Assembly: GCA_025449115.1 (NCBI GenBank)
Contig: JAHLKC010000173.1
Location: forward strand, 1 to 64,000
Length of the DNA stretch: 64,000 bases
Direction of reading: 5' to 3'
DNA from: Chytridium lagenaria
Taxonomy: Eukaryota > Chytridiomycota > Chytridiomycetes > Chytridiales > Chytridiaceae
Within the stretch, counting starts at the first letter, position 1. Every line of letters begins with the position of its first letter. Below, in pieces: positions 2,977 to 53,629 of this stretch. A model generated the notes under the pieces. The model was not told where the DNA came from. It saw only the letters and a program-made list of their open reading frames with translations, and made no database searches. The position numbers and the translations under genes are program-made.

Positions 2977-4906
2977 ATGTCATCCTGTTTTGCCCTTGCC
3001 GACTCTTCCATCTGCCAGATTCAACCTATCGCAACTGTCGCGCCTTTCCGTAGATCCCTCCAGCTGCCTCCATCATCATCACCATCACCATCACCATCAT
3101 CGTCTCTTCCAAGACCTTACATCAATCCAAGCTTTCTCACAACACTAGCCCAAGATGACGCCTTTTCTGCATTCGCCAACACGCCAGTAACATCTGCCAA
3201 GGGTATGGATGTAGCTATCGTCAATTGGATGACATCCATCACAAGCGTCATCTCCTGTGTAAACGTAAATATCACATCCCCTTTGCCTTTCCTATTCTTA
3301 CTCTTTATCAGGTCAACGCCACGTACATGCTCAACCTCCCTCAAGTCCCTCCCCCCACCTACCTATCAACAAGCATGTGCACCTTCATCGCATCCCGTGG
3401 CTCCTGTCCAACTACCATCAACGACTCCCCCCTCCCCATCCTCAACTCCAACTCTATCCCTCCACCGTGTCCAGATGTCTGCACAAGCATGAAATCCACC
3501 ATCGACGCTCTCACGGCTTTACTCGCAAAGGCGGAATCGGTGGGTCTACGAGCTCTTGGATCAAGATGTTCGTCTCAAGATACGCAGAGGGCAGTGTCGG
3601 GACTTCGGATCCTGAGTTCTGCTTGTGAGGCGAGTGTCACGAGTGAAGGATCGTGTGTGATTGCGAGAGTGGATCAAGACACGTGCGGTATGTCTTTACA
3701 CGCGTCTTCATCATCATCCCTTTTATTTTGTAGCGTACAGAAAATTAATGACTGAATATGTTTATAATAGGTCTTGGACCATCTGCACTCGCGTCCGACG
3801 TGGAAGCCTTCTGTGCCATTCCCTCCAACGCCGCATCCCCTTGCTGTCGCGCCATCCCGTCCGCATCTCCCCGTCCCAACACAAACACATCACCTCGGAA
3901 CCCTTCAAATCCCTCCACATCGCAACGCCAAACATCCAACCTTCCAACCTCTACCACCATCACGCTGAAAAATCCCGTCCCAACCACCCTCACCGCCTCC
4001 GGTTCAAGCCTCACAACCCTTCCCCTGCCCTCCAACACCCCTTCCCCAAACCGCACCCTCGTCATAGCCGCCTGCATCGTCTCAGGCCTCTTCCTCATCG
4101 CCTGCATCATCGCCATCCTCCTCTACCGTCGCAATATCCGTAAAACGGCTTGCGAAGAAAAAGGTAAACCCAACTTCCCTCTCGATAAAAGCGTGAAACC
4201 GACATGGCATAAGTATTCCAAGGCGGATGTCGATCAAGTCAAGGATTCAAAGTGGCGACAATCCTTGTTTGTAGGAAAGGAACGGACTTCGTCGCTTCCT
4301 AGAATTGAGAGGAACGAGAGTACGAGAAAAGGGTTGTTTGTGAACCTTGGTCGGAATGCATCACCGCGTACACCCTTGTTGAAAAGTCCACCACCACCTA
4401 AAAACGCCCTTTCCAAAGACATGATGTTTGCCAACGCCCTTCAAGGTATTCCCAACGTCGACACCCTCCCCACTCCCACCGACATCAAACCCAAACCCCC
4501 TCGTCTATCCTCCATTGGCGGCTCCATGTCTCTCACACGCAACCTCTCCCGTCTCTCCAACCCCTCCGACGCCTTCACCACCCAAAAGCTCCGTCCCAAC
4601 AAACATCTTCTTGGCAGAGAATTTGAAGAATCCGATGACGACGATGTGGTCGATTTTGATGTCAAAGGAGGGTGGAAGTTGAATAAACCGGAACGCGCAG
4701 AGGTCACGAGAGATTTTATTGGGGAACGTGGGGATGAGCTTTCGGTGGATGCGGGGGATACGGTGATTGTGAGGGTTGTGTTTGATGATGGATGGGGGTT
4801 TGGAACGAATGTGAGGACAAAGAAGGTTGGAGTTTTCCCTGTGTTTTGGATTAGACCGTTGGAGGAGGATTCGATGATTGCTGGAGGATTCGATGATTGC
4901 TGTTGA
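2977..4906 (+). CDS. single-pass membrane protein with C-terminal SH3 domain (Fus1-like architecture)
   Basis: Three exons (2977-3264, 3312-3687, 3771-4906) join in frame into about 600 residues. The N-terminal half contains many cysteines (CTFIASRGSC, CPDVCTSM, FCAIPS, PCCRAIP) and then a Ser/Thr/Pro stretch, as in an O-glycosylated ectodomain. A hydrophobic segment follows (IAACIVSGLFLIACIIAILL) and is capped by YRRNIRK, so the C-terminal half should be cytoplasmic. Near the C-terminus are an acidic patch (EESDDDDVVDFD) and an SH3 fold: VTRDFIGERGDELSVDAGD, DDGWGFGTN and VGVFPVFWI. Yeast Fus1 has the same order of parts and acts in cell fusion, but orthology is not shown. No clear signal peptide precedes the ectodomain, so the start could lie upstream, or the TM may act as a signal anchor. 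Confidence 0.75.
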
Positions 4907-5514: not shown

Positions 5515-7917
5515 ATGCTCGGTGGCAACAACATTCCAATGACTTCTTCATCGTCAACCCTCAATGGTAGCTCAGACTCTATCAACATGGACCATGTTGC
5601 TATCTTGAAGACACTCAAGAATAAACCGTCGTTCAGTGGAGGGTTCATGTCTTCCCCTTCTCTCTCCCGTGGCGTGCTTTCGTCGCAGTTGTCATCGGCT
5701 GGAATTGTTGGTGCACCTATGGCTGCATCGGATCAGTATCTCTCTAATGAAGGTATGTCATTTTCCTCTAATTATTGTGATCCCACATGCATGCATTGAA
5801 TGAGTGAACGAAGGATCAGTGCCTGACGGATGATGGATGTTGATGGATGAGGATGGATGGATGGATACAATGTCTTTTGGCATTAAAGTAGAAGAGGACG
5901 TTCGCTCGTTAACGTGCCGTGGGCTTCCTTCTCAAAAACCGGCTCATCGTCCAATCGATGTGGAATTTGATCTTCCGGGCTTATCTAAAAATTTGCTCAT
6001 TTCATATTCTGCCTCCTGCTGCTTTCTCCCCTGTGACGCTTGCTTGCCAGAGAGATTGCGTTAAACTAAACCTCACCTTTTATCGTTCTCTCGTCGTATC
6101 CCATCGTGCTCCTTTCAAAAACAACATTCCATCTCTATCCCACACCGCATCCGTCACATCCAACATCATGGTTCAACCATCAAAAGTTAACATCAAGTCC
6201 AAGATTATCTGCACCATCGGTGAGCTATTCACAGTCATCCTCATCTTGTTTCTGTTGTTGTTTGCATGTAATTGTATTGCATCCTTCTAACATGTGCATG
6301 CAGGGCCAAAGACCCAATCGGTCGAGATGCTTGGGAAGCTCGTTGAAGCTGGTATGAACGTTGCAAGAATGAACTTTTCTCACGGCAGCCATGAGGTGAG
6401 GAGACACTCATTATCCATTCAGCCTTTCACATAGTCCATTATCTAACCATGGTTATTCTCAAAATGCATCCAGTACCACGCCCAAACCATTGCCAACCTC
6501 CGCACCTACATCAGCAGCTGCAAACACCCCCGCACCGTCGCCATCCTTCTAGACACCAAGGGTCCCGAGATCCGCACCGGCAAACTCGAGGGCGGCAAAG
6601 ACGTGCAACTTGTTGCCGGCTCCACGTTCACCTTCCACAACGACATGTCCCGTCTCGGTGATGCCAGCCAAGTCGCCACCACTTACAGCTCCCTCTTCTC
6701 TACCGTCAACGTTGGTGACCGTGTTCTCGTTGATGACGGTCTCATTGGTACCATTGTCACTGAGATCCGCCCCGAGACGGGTGAGGTCGTTACCAGGATT
6801 GAGAATGACGGTTGGCTTGGCGAAACCAAGGGTGTAAACCTTCCAGGGAACCCTGTTGACCTCCCCGCCATCACCGAGAAGGATGCCGCCGATATTCGCT
6901 TTGGTGTTGAGCAGGGTGTCGATTTTATCGCCGCATCGTTTATCCGTAAAGCCGCTGATGTTCTTGAGATCCGTAACCTTATCCCAAGCACCATCAAGAT
7001 CATCTCCAAGATTGAATCTCAGGAAGGTCTCGACAACTTTGAAGAGATCCTTCAAGTTTCTGATGGGATCATGGTGGCGCGTGGCGACCTTGGTGTTGAG
7101 ATTCCTGTGGAGCAGGTCGCGAGATATCAGAAAATGATGATTCGGATGTGTAATGCTGCTGGGAAGCCTGTTATCACTGCCACCCAGATGCTTGAGTCTA
7201 TGATTGTTAACCCAAGACCGACGCGTGCGGAGGCTACCGATGTGGCTAATGCTATTTTGGATGGGTCTGACTGTGTCATGTTGTCTGGAGAGACTGCAAA
7301 GGGATCCCACCCCATTGCTGCTGTGGAGATGATGGGGAAGATTTGTAGGGAGGCCGAGGCCGATATCAATTATTCTGAATTGTATCCGGCCTTGAGGAGG
7401 CAGATCAAGTTGCCCATTAGCGTTCCTGAAGCTATTGCGTCTAGTGCTGGTATGTTTTCATTGTCTTTTCTTTCCACGTGAACGTTCTCTTCTAACGTAT
7501 TTCATATTACAGTCAAGACATCATGGGACGTTCACGCCGCGCTCATCATTGTTCTCACTCAGACTGGTAACACTGCACAAGCTATCTGCAAATACCGCCC
7601 CATCGCCCCCGTCCTCGCTGTCACCTCCTCTGAACAGGTTGCGAGGCAATGTCAAGTGCTTCGTGGCATCTACCCGCTTCTTGTGGACAACATGGGTGGG
7701 ACTGAGAACATTATTCACAGGGCGATGCTTTGGGGCATTAAGATGGGGATGGCGCATAAGGGTGACCCTGTGAGTTTATTTTGTCAAGTCCCCTCCGTCA
7801 TTTTTACTAACGGACTTTTTTTTTTCTTAGGTTGTCGTCACCTCTGGTGTCATTGAATCCGTCGCTGGTAGCACCAACATCATGAGAGTTCTTTCTTGTG
7901 TCGGCTTTGAGGTTTAG
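5515..7917 (+). CDS. PYK: pyruvate kinase
   Basis: This is the last step of glycolysis (phosphoenolpyruvate + ADP to pyruvate + ATP), in the cytosol. The core is encoded by exons 6168-6219, 6304-6395, 6474-7449, 7513-7769 and 7831-7917, about 487 residues and close to the usual 500. Diagnostic motifs are [33 protein letters not shown], the catalytic-lysine segment [21 protein letters not shown] and the family signature [13 protein letters not shown]. The C-terminal domain ends in SCVGFEV. The simplest start is ATG 6168 (MVQPSK), behind a CT-rich leader typical of highly expressed genes. An upstream exon, 5515-5752, ends with a good donor (G|GTATGT) and joins in frame to an AG at 6186. That would replace the first six residues with a 79-residue Ser-rich extension. 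No frame problems occur in the core. Confidence 0.95.
5753..6186 (+). promoter_or_regulatory. probable internal promoter / alternative first intron of pyruvate kinase
   Basis: If the upstream exon is used, this is a 434-nt intron, far longer than any other in the gene (61-84 nt). If it is not used, this is the promoter and leader of the short form, ending in a pyrimidine-rich stretch (about 6070-6160). The AG at 6186 has no strong polypyrimidine tract before it, which argues for the promoter role, but both could be true. Confidence 0.4.
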
Positions 7918-8242
7918 ATTATACTTCTATACCTTTTCTACTCCGCTCCCCCTCCCCCACCCTTTATTCCTCGCATAGACATTTCCCCATCCACTTCCCC
8001 CACCTGTTTATTTCATGTTGATGCCTCCTTTTCAATGTAATCATTGCTCCCCCCGCTCTTGTCCGTTCGAGACTTTTTGTGATCTCACGCTGTTCAAACA
8101 TCCAATCTTGCTTTTTTTGTTGCTGCGTTTCCGTTTTTTTTTTTGTTTTTTTTTGTTCAAATAAATCACTTGAGAATTGTTTTTTTTTCTTGTCGAGTTT
8201 TTTTTTGTCGTTTCTAAAACTTTGGTTTTTAAATTGCAATAG
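7918..8242. other. pyruvate kinase 3' region
   Basis: This is T-rich sequence with several runs of eight or more T and a possible branch/acceptor end (ttgcaatag) at 8234-8242. Nothing else is recognisable. Confidence 0.3.
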
Positions 8243-9098: not shown

Positions 9099-11963
9099 TC
9101 AGTTCTTTGGCTTAATCAAATCCTTGGGGTTGATACAGTACCCAAGTCCCTTGACGGGCTCCAAACCCCTAGCAGGCACATTCTTGGCAACAAGGTTCAA
9201 CACCTTCTCCTTGCTTCCACCAAACGACGCTCCACCCTTCACATTCAATCCCGAATCCTCCCAAGCATCATTCACAGCCGCGCAAACCCTGCACCCTTCC
9301 TGTGGCGACAAGACCTTAACCTCTGGCGCCAAAGTGTAGCTCAAACCACCCTTCACGTCCATGGTCCCCTTGAGAAGCCAGAGCTTGGCGGTTCCAAAGC
9401 CACTCACGGATGCTCCAACGGTGGGACGGAACATGGCGGTGTTGGCGGCGGTGCTGGGGCCACATTGGGGTTTCGCTTCCACGTCGGCCTTGAGAGATGC
9501 TGATGCGGTGATGTCAACGGTGATTTTGGCAACGTAGATGGGGAGGTCGATCTTGTAGGTGGCGACTTGAGTGCGCAAGTTGGCGACCGGACGTAAAAGA
9601 GGGCTGCAGGTGACGCCGTTTGCGATTTCCTGAGACACGACGGTCTTTCCGTTGAATCGAACGTGAACGCGACCGGTGGCGGTGATGCGGTTGTTGGAGG
9701 TGGATTTTGTGAGGACGGTTTCGGCGTCGAGGATGTCGAAACGACGGTTGAAGGCTTCGGCGTTGGCTTTGGCTGATGCGTAGAGTTTAAAGTCTGGGAC
9801 GAGACAGGTGGTGGAGGTGTAGCCTGCGAAGACACCGCCTGCTGCTGTGAGACCGAGTTGGGGGAATCCAGCGCGGAGACCAACGAGTCCTGCGGCGTGG
9901 GCGGGGTAGGTTGATGTGTCTGCGCGACGAGACGCGATGGGGAGGAGGGTTTCGTAGGTGGGGTGGAGGGTGGAGGCCCAGTTTTTGTCGGTGACGGGGA
10001 GCCAATCTTTTGGGATGGCGTCTTGGATAGCGCGACGGGTGATGATGGGGGTTGTGATGGATTGGATGGTTGGGGTGAGAGACGGGGAGTTTTGGGAGAT
10101 GAGGGAGAGTTCGTTGATGATGATGGGGAGGTGGGAGAAGGGTTTGAGGGATTTTATGGCGGCAATGCGGACTTGGAGGGGACGACGAACGTCGGAAGCT
10201 GTGGTGAGGAGAGCGTCGACAGCGAGGAGGGAGTTGGAGCCCATGTTGTCGATGGCGTGGATGGTTTGGAGGGCTTGGGCGTCGGTGGTGTTGGTAAGAG
10301 AGGTGATGTAAGGGGACATGGTCTCGTGGGCAAAATCAGCTTCGTGCGAGGAGACGAGGGAGCCGAGGAGAAGAACGTTGGGGGATCCCATGGTTGAGCC
10401 GAGGGAGATACGCTGAACGACGGCTTTACTGGGACGGCTGGCAAACGTAAGCGCCATACGAGCAAGATCTTGGTCGGCCTCTGTTTCCTCTTTAGAGAGA
10501 GCGAGCTCGGCAAGGTGCATGTGAGCCTCCTCGCTCTCGGATGCAGCGAGAGCAGAGAAGATCAAAGCCTTGGGGAGGGAGTGGAATCCGGATCTGCGGT
10601 TGAGACCGTTGGCGTCCCTCTTGGCATTGTGGCGACGAGACATGCTGATGAGAATGCTTGCGGCTTCGGGTTCCCTTTTAGCAAGGTTAAGAACGGCGTC
10701 CGCAGCGGCGTCGTTGGAGGGCTCCCTAGCAAGAATGTGGACGTGGGAAAGAAGCTCATCGTGGACTTCGGCAGTGGAACGACGCTCAAGAGTCTTCTTG
10801 GAAATCTCATCCGCCTTGATGGACTGGAGCTTGGTAGCGGGAACCTTGCCATAGGAAGGAACACGGGGCACTTCTGAGACGAGGGTGATATCGGAGGAAG
10901 CGTAAACCTTGATATCAGCGATGCCATCACCATCCTTGTCTTGAGCGGAAACTTGGGTACGGTCGTAACTCGAGTGAATAACGCCGTTTTTGTCGACAAT
11001 GCAGTCAGTGTGGGCCTTGTATTTGGAGGGGTCGTTGGATTCGGTGCCGGGGACGTAGCTCTTGATGGAGGCGTCGTCGTATTTGGCTTCGATAGAGTAG
11101 AGGGTGTTGTTGTAGTTGACGGCAGCGTAGCTGGCGGTACGGTCGGAAGTGACACCGGTCTCCTCAACCTTGGCCTTACCATTGGTGTAGTTGAAGTTGG
11201 TGTTGAAAGACTACATATAGACATTGTTAATACAACGAACAAGTGAGAATGTGATCACTGCAGAAGGAACAAATTAAAATACCAACCTCAGTGATACCCT
11301 TCTTGAGCGCAGCAGCCTCGGTACCCTCGTCTTCAGAAATATAAGCACCAAGAACCTGTCCATCGATTGACCTCACAAAGTAGTAAGGCTTAGCAAGCTC
11401 CTTGTCCTTAATCTCCGTAGCCTCATCACCCTTCTCATCAGCGTAAAGCTTAACGTTCTTGACCTGAAGCTCATACATGTGCGATCCATCTTCAACTCCA
11501 GTGCAGCTAAGGTGAACAGTGCAAGCAACACGAGTGGTCTGGTTACCCTCATCTCCAGAGATGATGACTGAAGATCCGTAGTTGTAAACTTGGGTAGTGT
11601 TGGTCTATCACCAAGTCAGCACAACGATCACCCACATATGAAACTCACCGAACAAGACGGCTTGATCGCCTCCGTCACCGGCTTGACATTCTCCGGTGCC
11701 TTTTCATACCCCCCAACAACAGCCGCCGGCGACACATCCTTGATGGCTTCCGGTACCTTGACGTAGGTCTCATCAGGCTTTGGGATCGCACCGTAACAGT
11801 TTGTAGGAGCAGGTGCCGTCGTAGCGACAACAGCCGCCGCAGTGGTAGCGGTAGGCTCAACGGTGGTCACCTTCTTGTGGTATTTTGCACACTTTTTGCC
11901 GGCATCGACTCCGGATGCAGCGACGAGGAGGACAGCAGTGAGGATGGTTTTGAGGGAGACCAT
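9099..11963 (-). CDS. secreted large-lipid-transfer-protein-like (vitellogenin N-terminal domain type) protein 1
   Basis: Three exons (11963-11649, 11604-11287, 11210-9099) give about 914 residues without any break. A signal peptide (LKTILTAVLLVAASGVDA) and a Lys/Cys start (GKKC) are followed by a Thr/Ala linker. Residues ~105-320 follow the plan of the LLTP beta barrel: VYNYGSSVII, a disulfide-like VACTVHLSC, KPYYFVRSIDGQVLGAY, then ALKKGITESF and VEETGVTSDRTASYAAV. Animal vitellogenins have K-R-G-I and E-x-G-x-C-x-T-x-Y at these places. Residues ~350-650 form paired helices ending in VRIAAIKSL, like the LLTP helical domain, and then a Cys-poor beta-rich region. DKDGDGIAD is a calcium-loop-like insert. 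Lipid binding is inferred, not shown. A paralogue lies directly upstream on the same strand. Confidence 0.65.
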
Positions 11964-13430
11964 GATGTTGTTTGTATATGTCTATAAAGTGGGTGTATCT
12001 ACAGAGCCGTCTATGAAATGAGAGAAAGTCTAACAACGGATCTCTTATATTTTATCACAGTTTCTCTTTTATCAAATGTAACAAAACGAAAAGAGAAGGA
12101 AGGAAAGCGGGGGTGCAAAGGGCAAAACCCTCTTATTGTTTTTTCAGGATTTGGTCCGCAAAAGTAGATGAAATGGACTTGTCAGTTTATGCATGTTTGA
12201 GAACACACCAGCCACCTGGTTACACCGTACTACCCTCGTGTAGCATGACATCACTCAAATTCTCACCGGTACAACTGAACAAATTTTAACCCAGTCTTTG
12301 GCTATTGGTCCAACCATGTTTCACAGTGTCTTTTCACTTTTACCGCTATTTGATTGGCTGGTTGAATATTAAGAGTAAAAGCGAAGAGGAAGGAGAAAGG
12401 CCCGTCTCCAAAAACGGCTTTTTTTATCTTTTTCCCTTTTGGAACACTTCAAAGCGCATAAAAACCTGAAAAAGGAATCTTTTTTATTTTTTATTGTTTT
12501 ATCTTTGCGGTGGGTCTCGTGGTTGTTGTGGAAGTGGCTCAAGTCAATATGTGCAAAGTAAAGAATCTCGAAAAAGACAAAAGGGGCTATGTAGCCTACA
12601 TGAAGTGATCATTTCAAGTTCCTGATGATCCATTGCCAACACGATGCCGTCTGTGCCTCACGTTTTTGATTCCTTACGAGAAGGGTTGCCACGACCAATA
12701 TTGGATTAAAATGTGTCGATGCTACAAGTTAATGGCAATGCATTGGAAGAAATACCAGAGCATAGAGAACCTTTAGAACTTCTTGACCACATTCTCGAAA
12801 ACAGAAGTTCTCGTTCTCGTCAATTAAAATGATAAAATACGAGCTCAAAGGCTCGAATGGTCCTTCCACTCGCCAAGAGAACGCTTGGATGGTCGAAATA
12901 TGAAAGTCCGTCCTTGAGCAATGACGTAGGTCAAAAGCCCACACCAAAAAAAAAAATTCCAACCGACGGCGAGGATAAGAACCTTGATGGAAGATCCCGC
13001 CAGGATCTATACCTAGATAAGCCATTCGGCCTTCGGCTCACTGTTCGGCAGTTTATCCTTTAAAGATTGGTAGATACTAAATAACGCTTCAAAAAAAGAT
13101 TAAAATAAACAAACATAAACTCTTTCAACGACACAAAAATCTTCATAAGCCTTCATAATCTCATGAAAAAAATGACGGTACACGAAATCCCTAACAGCTT
13201 TCAAAGTAAAATTCAGGAAAAGCATGCATTTAAACACGCAAACTTATATTCTCAACACATACAAATTGAACTTTTACAAACATACAAAAAAATCAAAATA
13301 ACGGTTGCAAAAAACTTGATTCAAAAACATAACACTTCTTTTGGTGGAAATCATCTCAAACAAAAAGGCATTTGACGAACATCATGATATTCCCCGATAA
13401 AACAAAAAACACGAAGGGAGAGGGCATTCT
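11964..13430. other. 1.5-kb intergenic region
   Basis: The left end is the promoter of the first lipid-transfer-like gene; a TATA-like gataaaatataag lies on the minus strand near 12044-12058. The rest is AT-rich with A and T runs. Reading frames here are short, have no family features and overlap each other on opposite strands, so I annotate no gene. Confidence 0.35.
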
Positions 13431-16400
13431 TTAGTAACTACCATAGTAGCCACCTCCGTAGACGGGGAGGGCTTCAGTGGGAGGTCCGTACACGGGGGCG
13501 GCCTCGGTGGTGGTAGTGGTGGAGGTGGTGGTTGTTGTAGTGGTGTAAATGGCTGTGGTGGTGGTTAAAGAAGGTGGAGGGGCGGTGTAAACAGGTTCTT
13601 CGGTGGTTGTAGTAGTGGTAGGGATGATGATGGTTGTGGTGGTGGTGGCTGTGTAGACAGGGCCATCAGTGGTGGTGGTGGTGGTGGTGGAGGTTAAAAC
13701 CGTCTTGGTAGTTAACGTGGTGATTGTGCTAGTGGTAGTTGTGGCCTTATGAGTAGTAGCCGGCACGGCAATAGTCGTGGTACTCTTTGGCTTTGTCTCC
13801 TCCGTCACAGCTTTCTCTGGCAACTCCTTCTTTGGCTTCTTCTTAAAGATCTCCGCCGGGTCCGCACAATAAGTCAACCCAGGGATAGGCGTGAACGGCT
13901 GACCAGCAAAGTTATACGAAAACAAGTCCCAGTTCTTCGCGTTCCTCCATTTACCAATGAAGAAGCGGTAATCCACCGACGCTGCAATCTTGATGTTGGC
14001 GGGATCCCAACCTTGGTTGAGGGAGATGCAGACCTTGCAACCATCCGACGGGACGAGGGCGCGGATTTCAGGACCAAGGGTGTAAGAGAGGGATCCTGAG
14101 ACGTGGATGGCACGCGGACGACGACGAGGGCGACGCCACCGGTTCCCGTGAGGACGGCAGAGATGGTAGGTTTGAATTGAACAGTCGCGGAAGGTTCCGC
14201 GCAAACCGTCAAATCAACCTGCGCGCGAAAGTTCCCGGAAAGGTTGACGCCGACGCTGATGCTGGCAATGTAGATGGGGATTTCGTAGCTGAAGTCAAGG
14301 ATGGTGAAAGGGAGGTTGGTGATGGGGAACACCCAGGTCTTGCAGGTGAACGTCAAGTCTTCGCTGAGAATGCTTTTGTTCATCAGGACGAGAGATGCAC
14401 CGGCTGAGGCGAGGGGTGGGGTGATACGATGGATGACGTGGAGTTTGGCGTCAAGGACTTCGACGACACGTCCGAATGCAGAGAAACTTGCGCGAGCGCG
14501 AGAGTAAGCTTTGAATTCAGGGACAATGCAGCCCTGCTTGCCGAGGCCTCCAAATGCACCACCGGCGACTTGGAGGTTGAGTTTGTCCCAACCAAGGTAG
14601 ATACCTGCGAGACCGGCGCCGTTGGTGGGGAAATCGAGGTTGTCTTGTTGACGTTCGCCGAGGGGTTGGACGAGATCAAAGGTACGGGATTTGGTCGAGT
14701 TCCATTGAGTGTCTGAGAGAAGTTTCCAGGAATCACCGGCACGACGAGTGAGATGGTTGGTGGGGAGGATGACGGACGCGGAACCACCAGTGCGAAGGAG
14801 AAGGTATTCTTCCACGGCGGAAGCAACGTCTGGGCTGTAAGTCTTGTGGGTTTCGTCGACAGCAGCTGCGAGGATGGACATGTCGAGAGAGTCTGCGGGT
14901 GCTGTACGGAGTGAACGAGTTTGACGGACAGCGGCGGTGGCAACTTCAATGATGGCGACTTTAAGGTCAATATCGAATGGGGAGATGTTGGAGAGGAGGG
15001 TAGCGAGTTCGTTCCTGACCATGGTGACGTCCATGACATCTCGGAGGGCTTTGACGGCTTCAACGCGGACACGCATGGAACGTCTGACATCGGCTGCGAC
15101 GGTGATCATGGCATCGACGGCGGTGAGTGCGTTTTTTCCCATGTTGCCGACACCCAACATGACGTTCATGGATTGACGGTCGTCTTCAATGTTGGCGATG
15201 GCGGCGTCGATGTGCGGGGTCATGAGGATGGAGGCGTGGGAGGCGGGGCGGGAGGAGAGGAGGGATCCGAGGACAACAACGTTGGCGTGACCGGGGGTGG
15301 TCATGTTGGAGACACGGTTGACGACATCCTCAGAAGGGTTCTTTGCGAAGGTGAGGACAGCACGAGCGAGACCTTGGATGTCGTTGGTGGCGTCTCCCAC
15401 GATATCCACAATATGCATATGGGCGTCTTCAATGGAGGATGCGGCGAGGGCAGAGAGGATGGCGTGTGGGGGCACGTGCGCGTGGGTTCTAGCGTCACGG
15501 GAACGACGGGCAACAAGGGAGATGGAACCGGAGGTAGAGGAGAGTTGACGACGGGCTTGCATGAGAACCAACGTGGCTGCTTCGGTGGAACGTTGGGAGA
15601 GGAGCATGAGTTGACGTGTGGCGTCCTCGTTTGTGGGGTCTTTGATGAGAGTACGGAAAAGAGCGTTGACTTGCTCTGTGTCTTCAGCGGTGGACCTACG
15701 GGTAAGGGTTGAGGCGCCAGCGTTGATTTTACCCAACAAGGCTTCGTCTTTCAAATTCTCGCCTTCAGGGATCGCAATACGGGGTTTCTGGGCGACAAGG
15801 ATACAGTCGGAGGCAGCGTGGACACGCATATCGGGACCGTTGGTTTCGTCGGTGGTGTACCCGGATTCGTCACCGGGGAGAACGTGGGTACGGTCGTAGC
15901 TGGATTGGAGGATACCGTTGGCATCGACGACGGCGTTGGTGTGGGCAGTGTATTGGGCATTCTCTTTGACGTGGGAGCCGGGAGCGTAGCGTTGAACTTG
16001 GGAGCCGTCGTATTTTGCTTCGATGGCGGTGTGGTTGAGGTAGTTGACTGCAGAGTACTCGGTGAGACGCTCAGAGGAGACTCCGGTTTCCGCGACCTTG
16101 GCCTGGCCCGTGGTGTACTTAAGGTAGGTGCTGAAGGACTAAGAAGTATATTAGGATAAAGGCTTACATAATAACGTAAATACGTTCAAAGTAATGATCG
16201 AATTGCTTACCTCAGTAATACCCTTCTTGATGGCAGCAATATCATCACTCTCAGTCTCTGCAACCTTACATCCAAGAACCTGACCCTCAGTGCTCTTGAT
16301 GAACCTGTAAGGCTTTGAGACATCCGTATCAGGGATGACGGTGACATTGGCAGCTTCAGTGGCATGGTAACCATCATCGGCCGCAGTGTTGGCCTGGGTG

Positions 16401-17052
16401 GTGATGACAAGGTTGGTGATTTGAAGATCGTAGAGATGGGCGGCAGTGGTTCCATTCTTTTTACCATCTTCAGATCCGAGACAGGTCACTGAGGCGTCGG
16501 CGGTCACATTGGTCGTGTGGTCTCCTCCGTTTCCTCCTGCAAGGATGATGCGGGAGCTGTACTTGTACACGTATGTGACATTGGTCTAGATAAGTGGAAT
16601 GGAATAGGTTAGAGAATTAAGTAGCGTTTTGCCATATGCGAGTAGTAATAAAAGATAAACAGAAGTATGCCTTTGGCGAGCACAATAAATAAAAGAAAAA
16701 AAAATATAACAGAAGATGCTGTGTCAATACTCACAAAACAAAAAGGATCAATGGGAACATCCTGTGGCTTGCATCCCTCTGGCGACTTTTCCTTTCCAGC
16801 AATAATCCTAGCGGGGTTCACCTTTTCAACGGCGGGCGGCACATTGTAAGGTCCATCCTCTGAAGGTTCGACAGGAGCCGGCCTTGCGATGACACCATAG
16901 GGTTTAGGAGCCGGGAGAGGAGAAGCGGTAGGAAAAGCAGCAGGTCCAGCTACACTTGTGGTGATCTTTGGTTTACACTTTTTTGCTTGGATGGTTGAGG
17001 AGGTAGAGAGGAGAATAAGGGCGAAGGATGCCCATGAGTGGATGTTGACCAT
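13431..17052 (-). CDS. secreted large-lipid-transfer-protein-like protein 2 with Thr-rich tail; one frame break near 14118
   Basis: This is a tandem paralogue of the gene at 9099-11963, with the same intron positions: exons 17052-16735, 16585-16211 and 16138-13431. It has a signal peptide (FALILLSTSSTIQA|KKC), the barrel (YVYKYSSRIILAGG, KPYRFIKSTEGQVLG, IKKGITESFSTYLKY, AETGVSSERLTEYSAV) and the helical part (VRVEAVKALRDV). The frame leaves phase near 14118, inside a GTC/CGC-rich stretch. The homologous continuation (IHVSGSLSYTLGPEIRAL, SDGCKVCISLNQGWD) is in another frame and stays open to 13431, and exon 3 is 2708 nt, not a multiple of three. Past the shared C-terminus (GLTYCADP) the gene adds about 110 residues of Thr-rich tail with repeated PVYTA/PVYG motifs, probably O-glycosylated. 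A TATATAC lies about 60 nt before the start. Sequence error or true lesion cannot be told apart here. Confidence 0.6.
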
Positions 17053-28986: not shown

Positions 28987-30081
28987 TCAAACCCCCAAAT
29001 CCCAAACCTCTCCCCTCAAAACCTCCTGACACTTTTCCCAATCCTTCTCCGGCCCCTCCCCCCCAAACTCCACTCTCTCCACCTCAACCCCCTCCCCATC
29101 CTTCACCGTAAAACAATACCTCGTCCACCTCCCCGCATCCCCCTCCACCTCCTTCCCAATCAACATAATCTTCTCCCCCTCCTTCCCAGCCAACGTCGCA
29201 AACTCCCTCCCCCCATCAGCAGGACACACATAAGGTCCACAAATATGATCCGTGACCACCTCAAACCACTCCTCCTCCACATCCACGTCTTCAAAAAAAC
29301 AAAAATGCCGGTACCCCGCCTTCTCCATCGTTGACGTTGTCACCGCCGTGTTGAGGTACATCCATCCTTTGCGACCGCACCATGTGGATGGGTGGAGCGT
29401 GAGGAAGGCGCCGCCGCTGATTCGGGTGGTGGCGTTGGGGAGGAGGGGGAGGGGGGTGAGTGGACTTCGATCTGCTGCGCCTATATCGCAGATCCATCGA
29501 GATGAGAGGGGGAGGTGGGAGAGATGGGGGGGGGGAGGGGGTTGAGGGGTTGGGAGGGTGACGATGAGGAGGAGGTGGGAGTCGTGACGGTTTGCGGAGG
29601 GGAGGGAGTCGTCGTCAAAGCCGATGATGATTTTGCTGGTACGTTTTTGGACAGTGTAGCCGAGGGTTTGGAGGGACCATGTGTATCTAAACCAAACATA
29701 TGTAAATAAGTGATTGTAATGGGTTGAAAAAAAAAATGGAGAAACTTACAGCATGTTGAGTTCAAGACAGAATCCACCACGATGGTTCTCCACCATTTTT
29801 TTGTAAACCCCTTCAAAGTCAATCCGGATCGGTCTTGTCTTTCGTTTCGTTGGTCCTTCATTCTTCACCACCCATCCTTCTGACCACTTTGGGGGATGGT
29901 AGATGGAAAAGTTCTCATACGGGATCGTTGTTTGGAGACATGTGTCGAGAGTGAATAAAGTCTCGAGCGTTGGGGGTGGGAGAGGGAGGGATTCGGATGG
30001 AAGCGTTGAGGGTGAAGCGGGGTCGTGGAAGCCGGGGAAGCGGATGCGGTGGAGAAAGTGGCGGATGTTCATGGTGGACAT
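28987..30081 (-). CDS. NAT: arylamine N-acetyltransferase paralogue 2
   Basis: Two exons (30081-29750 and 29696-28987) keep one frame, including through the C10 run near 29526-29535, giving about 346 residues. The start is MSTMNIRHFLHRIRFPG. Family motifs are TIPYENFSIYHPP, IRIDFEGVYKKMVENHRGGF and the catalytic Cys in RGGFCLELN, at the end of exon 1. The second exon has YTVQKRTSKIIIGF, the catalytic His in RHDSHLLLIVTLP and the catalytic Asp in WICDIGAADRSPLTPLPL. A fungal C-terminal extension (GYRHFCFFEDVDVEE ... GKEGEKIMLIGKEV) makes it longer than bacterial NATs (~280). It lies head to head with paralogue 3 across 188 bp. Acceptor substrates cannot be read from the sequence. Confidence 0.88.
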
Positions 30082-30269: not shown

Positions 30270-31373
30270 ATGCATCTCTCCATCCTCGCCTTTCTCCAAC
30301 GCATCAACTACCCGCTCCCGCAATCGTCATCCTTACCTCCACCCACCCTCGACACCCTCTTTACCCTCCACAAATGCATCCAGACAACGATTCCATACGA
30401 GAACTTTTCCGTGTTTCATCCTCCAACATGGTCACTCAAGTCTGGGTGGTTTGATAAAGCCGATGGTCCGTCGTTGAGAGAGACACGACCAATTCGGATT
30501 GATGTTAAGAGCGTGTACAAGAAGATGGTGGAGAGACGGAGGGGAGGGTTTTGTTTGGAAATTAATATGATGTGAGTCGATCGCTGCTGCCATCTTTGCA
30601 TTTGCGATATCACACTGCTGTTCATCAATAGACTTGTAACAATACGTATGTTTAGCTATGCATGGGCTCTAGAATCCCTTGGCTACACTGTCCAAAAACG
30701 CAGCGGAAAGATTATCACTGGTTTTAACAACGACACCCTCCCCGGTGCCAACCGTCCCGACTCCCACCTCCTCCTCCTCATCACCCTCCCAACCCCTCAA
30801 CCCCCACTCCCTCCTCACCTCTCCCACTTTTCCCCTCCACCTCCACGCTGGCTCTGCGATACAGGCGCAGCAGATCGAAGTCCACTCACCCCTCTCCCCC
30901 TCCTAGACGGCCACACTGGCGGTATAAGCGGTGGCCTCTCCATCTCCCTTAAATCCAACACCACATGGTGTGATCGACAAGGATGGATGTATCTCAATTC
31001 CTCTGCAGACGAGACGAGCGAGAAAAGGGGGTACCGTCATTTCTGTTTTTTTGAAGACGTGGATGTGGAGGATGAGGTGTTTGAAGGTATGACGGATTTT
31101 GTGTGTCGGCCAGAGACTTGTCCGCCTGTTCCGGGGTCTACAGAGTTTGCGACTGTGACGGGGAGGGAGGGGGAGAAGGTGATGTTGATTGGGAAGGAGG
31201 TTGGGGTGGATGGCGGGAAGGGAGTATTGTATAAGGTGTTGGTAAGGGATGCTAAGGGAGTTGAGGTGGAGAGAGTGGAGTTTGGGGGGGAGGGGAGGGA
31301 GAAGGATTGGGTGAGATGTCAGGAGGTGTTGAAGGAGAGGTTTGGAATTTGGGGGTTTTCTGAAGATGTTTAA
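30270..31373 (+). CDS. NAT: arylamine N-acetyltransferase paralogue 3
   Basis: Two exons (30270-30571, 30656-31373) join in frame to about 339 residues. The start is MHLSILAFLQRINYP. Exon 1 ends with the catalytic Cys (RRGGFCLEIN). Exon 2 has the His (RPDSHLLLLITLP) and Asp (WLCDTGAADRSPLTPLPL) segments and the same C-terminal extension as its neighbours (GYRHFCFFEDVDVED, TGREGEKVMLIGKEV, CQEVLKERFGIWGF). The intron is at the same site as in paralogues 1 and 2 but longer (84 versus 51-53 nt). This copy and paralogue 2 share more with each other than with paralogue 1. All triad residues are present, so an active enzyme is expected. Confidence 0.9.
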
Positions 31374-39820: not shown

Positions 39821-42191
39821 ATGGTCTCTCCTACCCTCATCCTCGCTGTTGCTGCAGCGCTCCATGCTGCTGCTGGTGTCGATGCCGTCGGAACGGCAGA
39901 CTACCAGCCGAATCGTCATGCTCTGCGTCTCATGATGACAGACCCAACTTTCTTGGGACTCGTTTCGTAAGTTCAATATTCTCGGACGATCGTGACGATC
40001 ACCTCTGAAATAGCGATCATCAACTTTATAGCTCACATTTTATCCCTACCACGCTCTAATGAAATAGCCCTTGCCCGACTCTCAGCACTCGTCGTAATGT
40101 CCCCGCAGAGTGGATCCGTACAGTCTTCCACGACGCCGCTACCTTTGACATCTCAACCGGAAAAGGTGGAATCGACGGTAGTCTTAAATACGAGATTAAA
40201 CGACCCGAAAATGGTGGTCTCGCCATCCCTGAAAGTTTAAAGCAATTTGAGAGTTACAAGGCTGACGGTCTCTCCATCGCTGATCTAACGGTCTTGGGTG
40301 GAATCACGGCCACGTTGGTGAGTTCCTTTCGTTTTGGCTGTAATCGCTGACTCCTTGTAAAAGTCTTGTGGAGGCCCCGAGATTCCGTTCCGTTACGGTC
40401 GTGCCGACGTATCCGCTGCAAATCTCGAAAACCTCACCCCACTTCCTGATCAAGGTGCTCACGCCCACGCTGGCATGTTCCGTCGTATGGGCTTCAACAC
40501 TGCTGAAATGATCAAGCTTGTTGCATGCGGTCATACGCTTGGTGGAGTTCATGCGGATACTCACCCAGAGTTTACAAAGAACGTTACTGCAACGTTTGAT
40601 TCCACAAAATCGGGATTTGATAACGCTATCGCGGTGGAGTTTTTGAATGGGTCGTCAAAGAATGTGCTGGCCTTGCCCAAGGGGGAGGGAGTGCCTGGGT
40701 CGAGAACGGATGCGGATATTTATGAGATTGATGGAAACAAAACTATGATAGAGTGAGTCTGGCCACTTTTTAGAGTTATTCATTGACTGACTATTATGTC
40801 TATAATAGACTTGCCTCTTCGAAAAAGAACTTTGACGATGCTTGCGGCCAAGTCTTTCAGCGGTTGTTTGATGAAGCGATTCCACGAGAGACTGTGCTTT
40901 CTGAGCCAGTTGAGCCATACCGCGTCAGTGTTGGCCTTGAAGTCAGAAGACGCAAGGAGACATTACAACTTCGAATTGGTTCAGCTAGGGTAAGTCAATA
41001 AGTCTTTTCGTATTTGATGGTTTATTCAGTCTTGGTCTAACGTGCGTATTTTTGCTGTGCCAGCTTTGGAAGATGGCCGGCACATTTAAACAGGTAAACA
41101 TTGATTACTATCGTCGCGATGGAACTCTTGGAAACCGCTCCGACCTCACGATCAGAGCGATGCGTTCGTCTATGAATGGCCAAGTCAACGTCTTTGATTT
41201 CTTGACTAACAAGCCTGTCGATCCCGTCACAGGGTAAGTTATAGACGTTCCTTTTTTTTACTTTGCGAAGGCAAACTAATATATTATTCCACATAGTATC
41301 TCCGCCGTCAAAGTCTCAGTTATCATGAACGATGGCACCGAGTTCATCGACACAGAAGGAGCTAATACTTTCCCCATCGACGACACCATCGGTATCGACA
41401 CCGACACTGCCTTCACCTGCGAATACAAGCCTTCCACAGGTGGAAATTCTGGTCTTAACATCACTGTCGGAGTTCTCGGTGACGAAACCCAAAACGTCTT
41501 CATCATGACCAAATACGCTGACGGTACGCTCGGCCCCCGTGTCAAAACCTACTTCCGTCGTTCTCGTTACAACACTCCTTACTCCTATTACGGTGTCTTC
41601 CTTCCCGATCTCATGGCTTTCGATGGCGGTCGTGGACTTTCTGCGTTTGGAGCGGTTGTTGTGAGATTGGATAGAAGCGAGAGCAAGGATTATAATTATG
41701 GTGCTTGGTATTCGCTCCTTTCTTTAGGCGCTGCGTGTAATGTCAACTCGATTTTGCCAAATGATCCTATAGTGTTTGATACGAACCCCACCGCTTCGAC
41801 CACGACTACATTCATGTCAACGACGACTGTGGCGACATCTTCCACGATGACTTCAACCACCACTACTGCAACCTCTTTAACCTCAACCTCATATGAAACC
41901 ACCACCTCTTTTGCAACGTCCAGCATCACGTCAACCAGCTCCACTTCAGTGATTATCTCATCGGCCTCTTCCTCGACTTCCCTCATTGCTTCAGCTTCCA
42001 CTACACCATCAACCCAAACCTCTACCTCAACTGCTCTTGTTTACTCCAAACCTGGTGATGCAAGCAGCATCCCACCCAAGCCTACTGCGACTGTGAAGCC
42101 TGACGGAAACATTGTCGTTAGCGGTGCGTCTTCCCTCACAATGGCAAAGTGGGCGATGGTATTGGGTTTGTTGGGATGGATTGCCCTCTAA
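39821..42191 (+). CDS. secreted haem peroxidase 1, probably GPI-anchored
   Basis: Six exons (39821-39966, 40086-40317, 40364-40752, 40809-40989, 41064-41233, 41297-42191) keep frame, about 670 residues. The signal peptide is MVSPTLILAVAAALHAAAG. Residues 49-300 are a plant/fungal-type peroxidase: the distal Arg and His in EWIRTVFHDAATFD, then GGIDGSLKYEI and DLTVLGGITATLSCGGPEIP, and the proximal His in LVACGHTLGGVHAD. A beta-rich region follows (YYRRDGTLGNRSDLTIRAMR, KYADGTLGPRVKTYFRR, YSYYGVFLPD). A Ser/Thr stalk leads to a C-terminal hydrophobic tail (SSLTMAKWAMVLGLLGW), as in GPI anchoring. Ligninolytic Mn-binding residues are not evident. The role is probably H2O2-dependent oxidation at the cell surface. 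Confidence 0.85.
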
Positions 42192-42532: not shown

Positions 42533-45204
42533 ATGCTATACCCTCGCGATCTCCTCATAGCAGCTGCCATCGTCATCGCCGGCACTCATGCTGCCGGGAC
42601 CGCCAACTACACCCCAAATCATCATGCCCTTCGTATCCTCATGACGGATTCCACTTTCCTCAGTTTGGTAACGTGAGTATCTCAATCCCTCAATTTTCAT
42701 CATCTCATTTGCATCCTACCCAGTCCCTGCCCTCCCGTGCCCTCCCAAGAACGCCGCAACGTCCCCGCAGAATGGATCCGCACAGCGTTTCACGACGCCG
42801 CCACCTACGACGCTTCAACGGGAATCGGTGGAATCGATGGTAGTCTTAAATACGAGCTCACACGTCCGGAGAATGGGGGTGTGGCTATCCCTGAAACGTT
42901 GAAACAGCTTGAGACTTATAAGATGGATGGTGTTTCTGTTGCGGATTTGACGGTTTTAGGTGCTATTGCAGCAACGTTGGTGAGTATTCTGGATACTAGT
43001 TTTTTTCGTTTTGCGTCAAAGGTGTTGAAGCTTTGATAGTCTTGCGGTGGTCCCGAAATTCCTTTCCGCTACGGTCGTGCCGACATCACCTCCGCCAACG
43101 CTGAAAACCTCACCCCTCTTCCCTTCCAAGGTGCCCACGCCCACGCTGGTCTCTTCCGTCGCATGGGTTTCAACACAGCTGAGATGATCCAGCTCGTCGC
43201 CTGTGGTCACACTCTTGGAGGTGTCCATGCAGACGTTCATCCCAACCTCACGAATAAAGTGACGGCGACGTTCGATTCCACAAAGTTTGGGTTTGATAAT
43301 GCGGTTGCAGTGGAGTTTGTGAATGGGACTTCGGCGAATCCATTGGCGGTACCGGTCAATGGAGATGGAAATGTCCCGGGATCGAGGAGTGATGCGGAGA
43401 TTTATGGGTTGGATGGGAATAAGACGATTTCAGAGTGAGTGAGTGTCCTTTCTATCTGTATCGTCTTGATCAGGAACTTATAATTTATCTATTTCGCAAC
43501 AGTCTTGCTTCATCCAAAAAATCATTCGATGACGCATGTTCCCGCGTCTTTTCCCGGATGTTTGATGAGACGGTACCAAGAGGAACAATCCTTTCTGATC
43601 CCATCCAACCTTATCCCGTCAGCGTTGGTTTCGAGATCAGGCGTCGTAGAGAAACTTTCCATCTTCGCATCGGTGCTGCCAGGGTAATTAACTTTATTGT
43701 TGTATTGCGTTGTTAATAAGACGGTATTCTTTAGGTTTGGAAAATGAACGGCCTCTTCAAATCCATCAACATCGACTATTACCGCCGAGACGGAACACTT
43801 GGACCACGAACTGACCTTACCATCAGACCCATGCGTACCGTCATGCAAGGTCTTCTCAATGTCGTTGACTTTCAAACGCTCAAGTCAATCGATCCCGTAA
43901 CAGGGTACTTTTCTTTTCTTTTTTTTTGCTCTCGTTTTTCCTCTAAGAAATTCTTTTTTTTATCGTTTTATAACTTTTTAAATTACGGATTTACTGTAGT
44001 ATCTCGGCAGTTAAAGTTAGCGTCATTCTCAACGATGGTAGCGAATACGTCGACACTGAAGGCGCAGGAACGTTCCTCATCGATGACTCTGTCGCTATTG
44101 ATACCGATTCTACATTCACTTGCGAATATAAGCCTGTCGGCGGTGGAAACTCTGGTCTCAACATCACCGCTGGTGTAAGCATATTCACCTCAACCACTCT
44201 CTGTTTCCCCATTTAAAACGCTAATCCCCGTTTAGGTTCTCGGTGATTCTGCTCAACGCGTCTACATTAAAACCAAACACCTGGACGGTACCCTTGGTCC
44301 ACTCATTAAAACCTATTACCGACGTCCCCGCCACAACACGCCATACTCCTACTACGGTGTTTTTATTCCCGATATTCTTTCTTTCAACAACAATAAGGGA
44401 ATAAGTGCATTTGCGGCTGTTTTCGTTAGAGAGGATGGAAGGGAAAGCGTGGATGTCAATAACGGATTCTGGTTCACATTGAATTCGTTGGGGTTGCCGT
44501 GTGGAGCTGCCGCCATTGTGCCGAATGACACTGTTGTGCTTGTTGGTGGGACGACGACGACGATTGCTTTGCCAACCGTCACGACTACTTTGACGACGGC
44601 AAGTGATGCTGAGACTTTAACGACGTCTTCGTTTACCACTACGACGACTGATGCTGTGACCACGTCGACGACGACCTCTGCCGTGACTACTTTGAGTGAG
44701 ACCGAGACTTCGACAACTTCTTTTGCGGCAACGACTACTACTCTTGCTGCGACTATTTCAAGTTCGAGTGAGGTCAAGAGCTCAACAACCACATCGGGGA
44801 CTAGTGCAACCTCATTTATTTCCTCCTCCACCATTACCACCACCGCCACGTCTACCACTTCGACAACTCTATGTTCTTCTATAAACGCGTCCACCACTTC
44901 GATCACCTCTCCCACCACGTCTACAACCGCTGTTTCCTCCACCCCCACCTCTTCCGCCACCGCATTCGCCTCATCGTTTACAAAAGACCCAGCGACAACG
45001 CCTACAACATCATCGACATTCACCACATCACCTTCTCTATCATCCGCCTCCCCCAATTACACAAAACCGATTGACGTCCCCACAAAACCTCATGTCACGA
45101 AACCTGCCGGAAACGCCGGTGATATTGTTGTGAGCGGAGGCCTGAGGAACGGAGGTTGGGGATGGGTTTTGGGAGTCGTGGCGATTATGGTGATGTCGTT
45201 TTAG
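42533..45204 (+). CDS. secreted haem peroxidase 2, tandem paralogue
   Basis: Seven exons: 42533-42672, 42724-42979, 43040-43434, 43503-43683, 43735-43904, 44000-44174 and 44236-45204. It has the same plan as the upstream gene: signal peptide (LLIAAAIVIAGTHAAG), distal Arg/His (EWIRTAFHDAATYD), CGGPEIPFRYGRADI, proximal His (LVACGHTLGGVHADVH), the beta-rich region and a longer Ser/Thr stalk ending in a hydrophobic tail (GWGWVLGVVAIMVMSF). Five introns are shared in position and phase. The sixth (44175-44235) is present only here, inside the conserved N-I-T-x-G|V-L-G sequence that is continuous in paralogue 1. Exon 2 starts ~20 nt further upstream than in paralogue 1, adding a short Pro-rich insert. 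The duplication is old enough for intron gain or loss. Confidence 0.85.
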
Positions 45205-51159: not shown

Positions 51160-53629
51160 TTAATTGATATCGTACTTGACTTGTAGCGGCCCGAAAGCAA
51201 ATAATCCACGCGCTCCCGCAAAAATATAAACGAGCATGATAGTGATAGCCGTCACGATGGTGAAGTAGACGCGAGGTTGAAACTTTGATCGAACTGTATA
51301 CATCGGAAATCCTAATTTCCTGTTAACATTATGCATATCATATCGTTTGGGAAATAAAGAAGGGATAATATTTGACGTACGCATACCTTGACTTTTCTCC
51401 CACATCACCACAACTCTTTCAATAACTCCAGCATACAGCAAAGATACGACCGTCGTCAACACCACAGCGGCCAACGGTCGTCCTCCCAACATCAACACCA
51501 GATCATTCGTCCCAAGTAAATATTCACGTCCAGAATCATCTCCAACTCCATTCACCCCATAAAACTCTTGCCTCACAACCCCCATGTCATGTCCAGGAAG
51601 CGCTAAAAAATCCCCCGGCGACACGCAAACCAGCGCCAGGCTGATCAACATGCTCGCGTATTCTGCTGTACAGTGATCCCGTCTTATGATGTCATGGGAT
51701 ACTGGGAACTGGATGTCGCCAACTTCCATGATTTTTTTCACGACACGGACGGTTGCTGTATGGATAACGTTGGTTTGAAGACTACCGTGGGATGTGGTGA
51801 AAGTTCTTTGGCGCCGTAATGTGCTACGCTGACGGTGTGGACCTAAAACCGAAAGGTGGCGGTTCATTGCGGATGGAACGCCGCTATCGAAATTCTTGGG
51901 GCTGTCGCTGTTTGTGGTATTGGATCGAAGAAGCGTGTTGGACCGCGTTGGTAACCCATCAATATAATCTTCTTCTTCTAGAAAAGATGTCGTTCTTTGT
52001 GACGATTGATATTGTATGGACACTCGATGCTCCCCGTCGCTCCCTCGCGGTATAGATGCTACTCGCTGAATTTGATCTCCTTGAATGGAAACATCCTCTT
52101 CATGAATGTATGCAATCTCATTCGGTAATTGACCCTTCATCGATACCCTATGCTCTACAGGAATTCTTTTAGGGTATGATGGTACCCATCGATCTGAAAG
52201 AAACTCCATAGAATTTGTCGGAGGTGGCAAATCGCCTAATAGTTGGGAGGCGTTGAAGGCCGGGGCAGTGATTGCTCATTCTCACTTAATAAAAGATCAG
52301 GCTCGTTGTAGTCTCCATCAAGAGATATTGCCGCTTCGGCGGCTTCTTTCAGTTTCTTAGCTTTTGCCATCGCTTGACGACCAAATAGGAGACGAGGTAG
52401 GGCTCGGTCAAATATTTGCGATAAAAACAAAAGTGGCCAGAATGTATCTATAAAAAAAAACAGTTTTACTCATCATGCATCACTGGAGCAAAAGCTTACA
52501 AGCGGGATTTCGTATAGCTTGCATGAGTCTGAAAAGTTTAATGGGTATCAAGAACATTGCGAAAGCTGGCATGAAAAACTGTTCAGTGGATTTTACGAGT
52601 TTATGTTTCTCTTCTCCATTGAGCTCGTTTGCCTTTTATAATCATCAAAATGAAATGGTTTAAGAGAAAGTACACAAAGAAAAACAAAATAATGCTTACT
52701 TGTGCTGATGTTAGAAAAAATAGGTTTTGCAAAAGTGAGAAGATTGCAAAGAGGGTAAACGTGACCAGCAAATTCCCTGTATACAATCTTGACACTTGGA
52801 CGCAAATTGAAATCCCCATATACCCCACTACCACCAAAACGACCGTGACTGTTGTCTATTTTCTCAGTATTTAATATTTGAACAAAAACTTACAGTCACA
52901 AAGCCTTCTAAAAAACAACTTTAACGAGCTTTTTGGAGCCTCCGTAGGTACCGTGGTCTTTTCTTCATCGGCAACGCCAGACTCATCTTCAACTCTACGC
53001 GGCGTACAGCGCTGGAGAAGTTTGTCCAGAACTTTGCCGAAAAAGCAGAAACGCCATACGAATCCAGCTAAAAAGCCTTCAGTGGATGATGTGTAAGTTT
53101 CTTATAAATATACCAATCCAGTGAAATATAAGATATCCAGTGATAAACCCTGCTCTGACCTGAACACGATCTTGATAGATCCTTTGAAAAAATTCAATAA
53201 GTGTATAGCTGAAAGTGCTTACCTTTCCACAGCCACAGCTGTTGCGATGGATCCGCCAACCGTTACCGTGGCAGAAGGAAGGCTCTTTACAATAGCCCAT
53301 TTCGGATCCTTTTGAATGTCAATTGTAAAAACAAGACCATGTAGTTTCTCATATAATAATCTTACAAGTTCTGTAGCGATTGACAACATCGTCATCACCT
53401 CTGATATTAACAGCCCTAAAATGACTGAAAATATCCCAGGATCCACGAACGACCCCTTCGCCGCAATACCGTCGAGAAAAAAGATCAGCAACGAGACCAA
53501 CATGACAGCCGGCACAGCAAACGCGACAGCCCTTCCAACAACAATGATTTGATCCGCTGCAAACTTGTATTCTCCTTCCCACACGCCTATGGGTGCCGGA
53601 TCTGATGTCGGCTCAATGAAGGAGGACAT
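51160..53629 (-). CDS. T1: polytopic membrane protein of an unrecognised family
   Basis: Eight exons: 53629-53366, 53308-53223, 53181-53114, 53076-52894, 52848-52700, 52632-52500, 52447-51387 and 51311-51160. About ten hydrophobic segments are visible, e.g. VVGRAVAFAVPAVMLVSLLI, LVVVGYMGISICVQVSR, FTLFAIFSLLQNLFFL and VYFTIVTAITIMLVYIF. A large Ser/Arg-rich cytoplasmic loop separates FDRALPRLLFGRQ from RRDHCTAEYASMLISLALVC and SPGDFLALP. The C-terminus carries the family signature AGARGLFAFGPL. Exon 7 is one base short of phase: the frame leaves at the CCCCGGCC run near 52258-52265. T2, T3 and T4 share exon structure and motifs. Function is unknown. Confidence 0.6.

Follow-up and report, generated by a model that had tools for sequence, protein, structure and literature searches.

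Two neighbouring genes of the chytrid fungus Chytridium lagenaria (Chytridiomycota, Chytridiaceae) are best read, on their sequence and predicted structures, as encoding a highly diverged, secreted family of MTP-sized proteins with a probable role in lipid transfer. They were found in a window of 64,000 nucleotides (assembly GCA_025449115.1, contig JAHLKC010000173.1, positions 1 to 64,000), which is part of a 71,475-base contig in a genome of 41.9 Mb. Both are on the reverse strand in tandem, gene 1 at 11963-9099 and gene 2 at 17052-13431, with 1,467 bases between them. The large lipid transfer proteins (LLTPs), which include MTP, apoB, vitellogenin and lipophorin, are described in a passage of PMC1783640 as the fat loading and carrying machinery of animals. 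It is very probable that the chytrid proteins are relatives of the LLTPs, and this kinship and layout, taken together with a lipid role somewhere along the secretory route, is also considered probable. That the proteins transfer or carry lipid themselves is fairly likely, and an extracellular site of action is somewhat preferred to one in the endoplasmic reticulum (ER). The cut-offs of PF01347 and PF19444 are not reached and the barrel disulfide of MTP is missing, therefore the proteins are not placed within MTP, vitellogenin or apoB; the best name for them is a divergent LLTP-like family of chytrids.

Gene 1 corresponds letter for letter to the annotated hypothetical protein BC829DRAFT_408211, its three joined exons giving 914 aa free of stops, and gene 2, also of three exons, is annotated as BC829DRAFT_408213. 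A search for orthologues, as proposed in the first-pass annotation of this window, which was made from the sequence alone, identified one relative outside C. lagenaria, HDU96_007686 of Phlyctochytrium bullatum (975 aa). The P. bullatum protein is 45% identical to gene 1 over 96% and gene 2 is 38% identical to gene 1, which argues that the pattern is not due to chance. No fourth family protein was found in word-based protein searches, in which only the 7,990-7,994 candidates with the most shared words were scored. Adding MTP to the query again brought up these three proteins but not a single MTP from an animal, thus this collection cannot show the true spread of the family.

Similarity to the Vitellogenin_N profile

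The Vitellogenin_N family (PF01347; curated cut-off 24 bits) was named before any search of the Pfam library of 24,736 families was made, and a match to it is therefore a pre-stated test. As a control, human MTP scores 294 bits to PF01347 and 568 bits to PF19444 (MTP_lip_bd). The gene 2 exon translation, taken up to the frame break described below, matches PF01347 with an E value of 9e-4 against the whole library. The gene 2 barrel alone (exon 2 and the start of exon 3) does so with an E value of 7.8e-4 and 18.6 bits, over positions 4-149 of the 590 in the profile. For the named family alone the gene 2 E value would be approximately 3e-8, by division by the number of families and uncorrected for the several sequences tried.

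A second domain carries the same likeness. Six fragments of the helical part, picked after the first PF01347 match, all match the family inside profile positions 428-533, with E values of 0.088 and 0.045 (gene 1), 0.22 and 0.07 (gene 2), and 0.064 and 0.031 (P. bullatum). Residues 515-567 of gene 1, for example, match positions 470-521. PF01347 is the top family for four of the six; for the two fragments of gene 2 it is second after DUF5575_C. The matched region includes a pattern typical of vitellogenins, made up of GN-x-G, which reads DN-x-G in gene 1, and VRxxA[IVL][KR]. None of ten decoys (four shuffles each of two fragments, and reversals) matched PF01347, and two matched other families with E values of 0.098 and 0.32. 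Since decoys reach similar values elsewhere, the weight lies on the recurrence of the named family at one place in three proteins rather than on any single E value. The test suggested at first has thus given the expected family in two separate domains in the correct order, although below the curated cut-off.

Predicted structure and comparison with known LLTPs

AlphaFold2 models were made for the gene 1 and P. bullatum proteins from shallow alignments, with animal sequences excluded. For both models the first five Foldseek matches in the PDB are LLTPs, with MTP at the top followed by lipovitellin and apoB, and the alignments span 783 to 1083 columns. Together with the PF01347 matches, this ranking supports a fungal branch of the LLTP family. 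In the gene 1 model a pre-segment to approximately residue 105 is followed by a barrel to approximately 342, 15 helices (343-608) and a beta part (609-914); the P. bullatum model likewise has 15 helices (422-671) flanked by beta parts. The order of barrel, helical part and beta-rich end, as well as the likeness to lipovitellin and MTP, had been anticipated from the sequence and is seen in the predicted structures. The anticipated resemblance to the N-terminal module of the LLTPs is upheld, but is too narrow a description, since the order and size match the MTP large subunit and the likeness therefore reaches the beta-rich end.

According to the models, the closest layout is that of MTP. The large subunit of MTP (8eoj_B, 6i7s) has 894 aa, against 914 for gene 1, and a passage of PMC3337244 divides it into a barrel (22-297), helices (298-603) and C-terminal sheets (604-894). 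The animal and chytrid proteins alike have a signal-like N-terminus, a barrel, a helical arch and a beta-rich C-terminal part, and nothing beyond. MTP is the first Foldseek match for both models, and in sequence alignment its KRGL element falls on the chytrid KKGI. The chytrid proteins differ from it in the absence of a PF19444 match and of a counterpart to the barrel disulfide. They also carry a pre-segment at the N-terminus and dibasic pairs close to or at the domain junctions, and the gene 2 protein has in addition a tail rich in Thr. Lipovitellin (1lsh_A), the third and second best structural match, shares the Vitellogenin_N-type barrel and the helical part; vitellogenins are longer than the chytrid proteins, in which no polyserine stretch is seen by eye. 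The N-terminal module of apoB (9e9r, 9ea7, 9bd1) is the same module in the Foldseek ranking, but apoB continues for thousands of residues past the point at which the chytrid proteins end.

Gene structure

All gene 1 features are on the reverse strand. Exon 1 (11649-11963) encodes a signal-like peptide and a Thr/Ala/Pro-rich pre-segment (residues 1-105), and is separated by a 44 nt intron (11605-11648) from exon 2 (11287-11604), which encodes residues 106-211, where the predicted beta barrel begins and runs through its first half, and has KKGITE at its end. After a second intron of 76 nt (11211-11286), exon 3 (9099-11210; residues 212-914) contains the second half of the barrel, to approximately residue 342, the helical part with its 15 predicted helices (residues ~343-608; 10020-10817) and the beta-rich C-terminal part (residues ~609-914; 9102-10019), the position of which is that of the C and A sheets of MTP.

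Gene 2, on the same strand, has exon 1 (16735-17052; signal-like peptide and pre-segment), an intron of 149 nt (16586-16734), exon 2 (16211-16585; first half of the barrel), an intron of 72 nt (16139-16210) and exon 3 (13431-16138), which encodes the end of the barrel, the helical part, the beta-rich end and a Thr-rich tail (13431-13800) that gene 1 lacks. The places of the introns match between the genes, as had been noted at first for this tandem pair. The first intron directly precedes TN... and the second separates KKGITE from SF, and all four are GT..AG and in phase 0. Shared ancestral exon boundaries are a feature named for the animal LLTPs in a passage of PMC1783640.

Exon 3 of gene 2 is open from 16138. 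Between approximately 14139 and 14096 its frame shifts relative to its relatives, in a way that the loss of a single base would explain; downstream it is open to 13431 with conserved residues. The deposited protein (1111 aa) is reproduced exactly by skipping a 44-nt GT..AG stretch (14096-14139) and an in-frame 21-nt GT..AG stretch (16068-16048). The latter, implausibly short for an intron, removes approximately half of the ETGVxSERxxxY motif. In Pfam, the deposited protein does not match PF01347, whereas the plain exon translation does. The 44-nt stretch is coding at the same place in gene 1 and P. bullatum, and is therefore read here as exon that probably carries a sequencing error or lesion, although it may be a tiny intron since gene 1 has one of 44 nt elsewhere.

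Motifs, cysteines and processing sites

The motifs first noticed in the two genes can be read directly in both and have counterparts in P. bullatum. KKGITESF is present in gene 1 and gene 2, with KNGICETF in P. bullatum; the ETGV motif reads ETGVTSDRTASY, ETGVSSERLTEY and ETGVASSRVVDY in the three proteins, and the helical motif VRIAAIKSL, VRVEAVKAL and VRSAALRAM. The three proteins have eight invariant cysteines in common (25, 104, 139, 680, 746, 851, 854 and 903 in gene 1 numbering), of which the last five are in the beta-rich C-terminal part of gene 1. A C-terminal cysteine spacing equal to that of MTP was considered and dropped on recount.

The proposed signal peptides are borne out as signal-like N-termini, with best 12-residue Kyte-Doolittle means of 2.3 (gene 1), 1.8 (gene 2) and 3.0 (P. 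bullatum), but that of gene 2 is weak, its 19-residue score of 1.08 being below the best inner window (1.33). Beyond the N-terminus there is no 19-residue window above 1.4, so neither a membrane nor a GPI anchor is suggested. There are five N-glycosylation sequons in gene 1, five in P. bullatum and ten in gene 2.

Dibasic pairs occur at comparable places in the three proteins: the junction of barrel and helices, two places in the helical part, and the junction of helices and C-terminal part. The gene 1 pairs at 354, 403, 416 and 603 have comparable counterparts in both other proteins, and by eye only 403-404 is strictly aligned. Arg354-Arg355 (10779-10784, reverse strand, as are those that follow) is at the barrel/helical junction, where the other two proteins have a pair nearby, that of P. 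bullatum a few residues off. Arg403-Arg404 (10632-10637) is within the helical part, and Arg603-Arg604 (10032-10037) is at the helical/C-terminal junction, the comparable pair in gene 2 being within an insertion. Enrichment of such pairs is found only in the gene 1 protein (shuffle p 0.0065; 0.20 in P. bullatum and 0.29 in gene 2). According to a passage of PMC1783640, insect vitellogenins are cut at a dibasic site between motifs N6 and N7, and insect apolipophorins (apoLp-II/I) at one between N19 and N20. We read the N6/N7 cut as falling at the barrel/helix junction and the N19/N20 cut as further down.

Mode of action and alternative explanations

The most likely mode of action is that the chytrid proteins would fold in the ER, house a lipid (a phospholipid or a sterol in all probability) within the C-terminal beta part, and shuttle it through the secretory pathway or extracellularly. 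Passages of PMC10907164 assign lipid holding to bulky hydrophobic residues of the MTP sheets, and phospholipid is the likelier cargo because its transfer is argued there, and in passages of PMC3337244, to be the older activity of MTP. The gene 1 product would be soluble, and that of gene 2 a wall-associated form on a Thr-rich stalk. A Kex2-like protease may trim the three proteins at Arg-Arg or Lys-Arg pairs at or near their domain junctions, by analogy with the furin-type enzymes that act on insect LLTPs.

A possible but rather unlikely variant, which overlaps with this explanation, is that the same family stays in the ER as an assembly factor, where protein disulfide isomerase would retain it as it does animal MTP, and lipidates another secreted protein. 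The size and three-part layout are those of MTP, and the binding of animal MTPs to protein disulfide isomerase is taken as their means of ER retention in a passage of PMC3337244. However, the sequons, dibasic pairs, Thr-rich pre-segment and Thr-rich tail of gene 2 resemble those of proteins that travel onwards, and neither the gene 1 nor the gene 2 protein, read directly, ends in a KDEL/HDEL-type motif. A search of the C. lagenaria genome with one protein query, limited to the best candidates, found no copies besides genes 1 and 2. Searches of that genome for PF01347 and PF19444, in which the controls were silent as well, and an uncontrolled one with human MTP were empty and say nothing about absence. 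We know of no apoB-like client.

Several results weigh against kinship with the LLTPs. Neither the gene 1 barrel nor that of P. bullatum matches PF01347, the best score to which (the 18.6 bits of gene 2) is below the curated 24 bits, and full-length gene 1, P. bullatum and deposited gene 2 proteins give no match to it. PF19444 has no match at E ≤ 10 in the three full proteins or two C-terminal fragments, and neither VWD nor any further domain from the C-terminal region of vitellogenins is matched at this level in the 914, 975 and 1111 aa proteins. When the PDB was searched by sequence, gene 1, the gene 2 barrel and a three-protein profile all failed to find an LLTP, MTP being found only when it was part of the query. 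In a profile comparison with human MTP the best stretch of the chytrid barrel places KKGITESF on KRGLASLF in the right register, but this is not significant, with 3 of 200 shuffles scoring higher; the full-length comparison is weak, and meaningless in global mode. The barrel disulfide proposed at first is not borne out: Cys104 and Cys139 are invariant, but the barrel pair of MTP, Cys174-Cys194, has no counterpart. Every one of the three proteins carries Arg at the first of these places, and at the second there is Cys in gene 1 and P. bullatum and Ala in gene 2. Model confidence is also low (mean pLDDT 41 and 39), and the models do not resolve how the two sheets are arranged.

One alternative is a convergent secreted protein, in which a HEAT/ARM-like helical repeat lies between unrelated beta domains and serves adhesion, or protein or glycan binding, with no lipid. 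The helical parts match designed armadillo, alphaREP and other HEAT-type proteins equally well, pLDDT is mostly 20-48 over the beta parts in both models, and neither of two fragments of the C-terminal part has a Pfam match. Against this, PF01347 is also matched by the gene 2 barrel, where there is no helical repeat, and by none of the decoys, and LLTPs head the PDB ranking in both models with alignments far longer than those of the next rows. Convergence is therefore much less likely than LLTP kinship and on the whole improbable, and is retained in view of the low confidence of the models and the non-significant profile comparison with human MTP.

Horizontal transfer from an animal into an ancestor of these chytrids would fit the presence of the family in only two chytrid genera in the searches made, but is improbable, as the divergence is so large that the LLTP likeness is barely detectable by sequence, the genes have introns, and a member of the family occurs in a second genus. 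The protein collection gave no animal MTP even with MTP in the query, a result that says nothing of distribution elsewhere.

Neighbouring genes

Local duplications are abundant in the window. An inverted pair of similar genes at 28987-29745 (reverse) and 30576-31373 (forward) has weak, sub-cut-off matches to arylamine N-acetyltransferase (PF00797; E 0.036 and 0.009). Two genes in tandem at 41280-42191 and 44236-45204 (forward) encode similar Ser/Thr-rich proteins with a hydrophobic end that is GPI-anchor-like by eye, and have no Pfam match above cut-off. Three putative membrane proteins at 51160-52275 and 54140-55204 (reverse) and 60216-61220 (forward) are similar by eye, with no Pfam match at E ≤ 0.1. 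Near gene 1 is a pyruvate kinase gene at 6447-7481 (forward; PF00224, E 1.3e-117). The gene at 3752-4906 (forward) encodes a putative membrane protein that would span the membrane once and has an SH3 domain at its C-terminus (PF00018, E 3.8e-5). No match to a viral contig was found, and neither a tRNA nor, at gathering scores, any Rfam family was detected in the window.

Implications for the LLTP superfamily and the chytrids

No fungal LLTP was found in the literature by titles and abstract openings, which is no proof that none is in print. If the kinship of the chytrid proteins is true, they would be an outgroup for the superfamily and date its origin. MTP is suggested to be the oldest LLTP, with phospholipid transfer the older activity, in a passage of a review (PMC3337244), and a fungal relative would make the question of the ancestral cargo directly testable. 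It can be suggested tentatively that the superfamily predates the animals. An MTP-like lipid shuttle in the animal-fungal ancestor may have been lost in most fungi and kept by some chytrids in the form of a secreted lipid carrier that is processed by a protease and tethered in part to the wall, forming a lipoprotein-like system without apoB. Chytrid zoospores have a lipid globule, which is used during development according to a passage of PMC8887899. A fungal LLTP, if true, would point to an unknown lipid-handling route in the chytrids.

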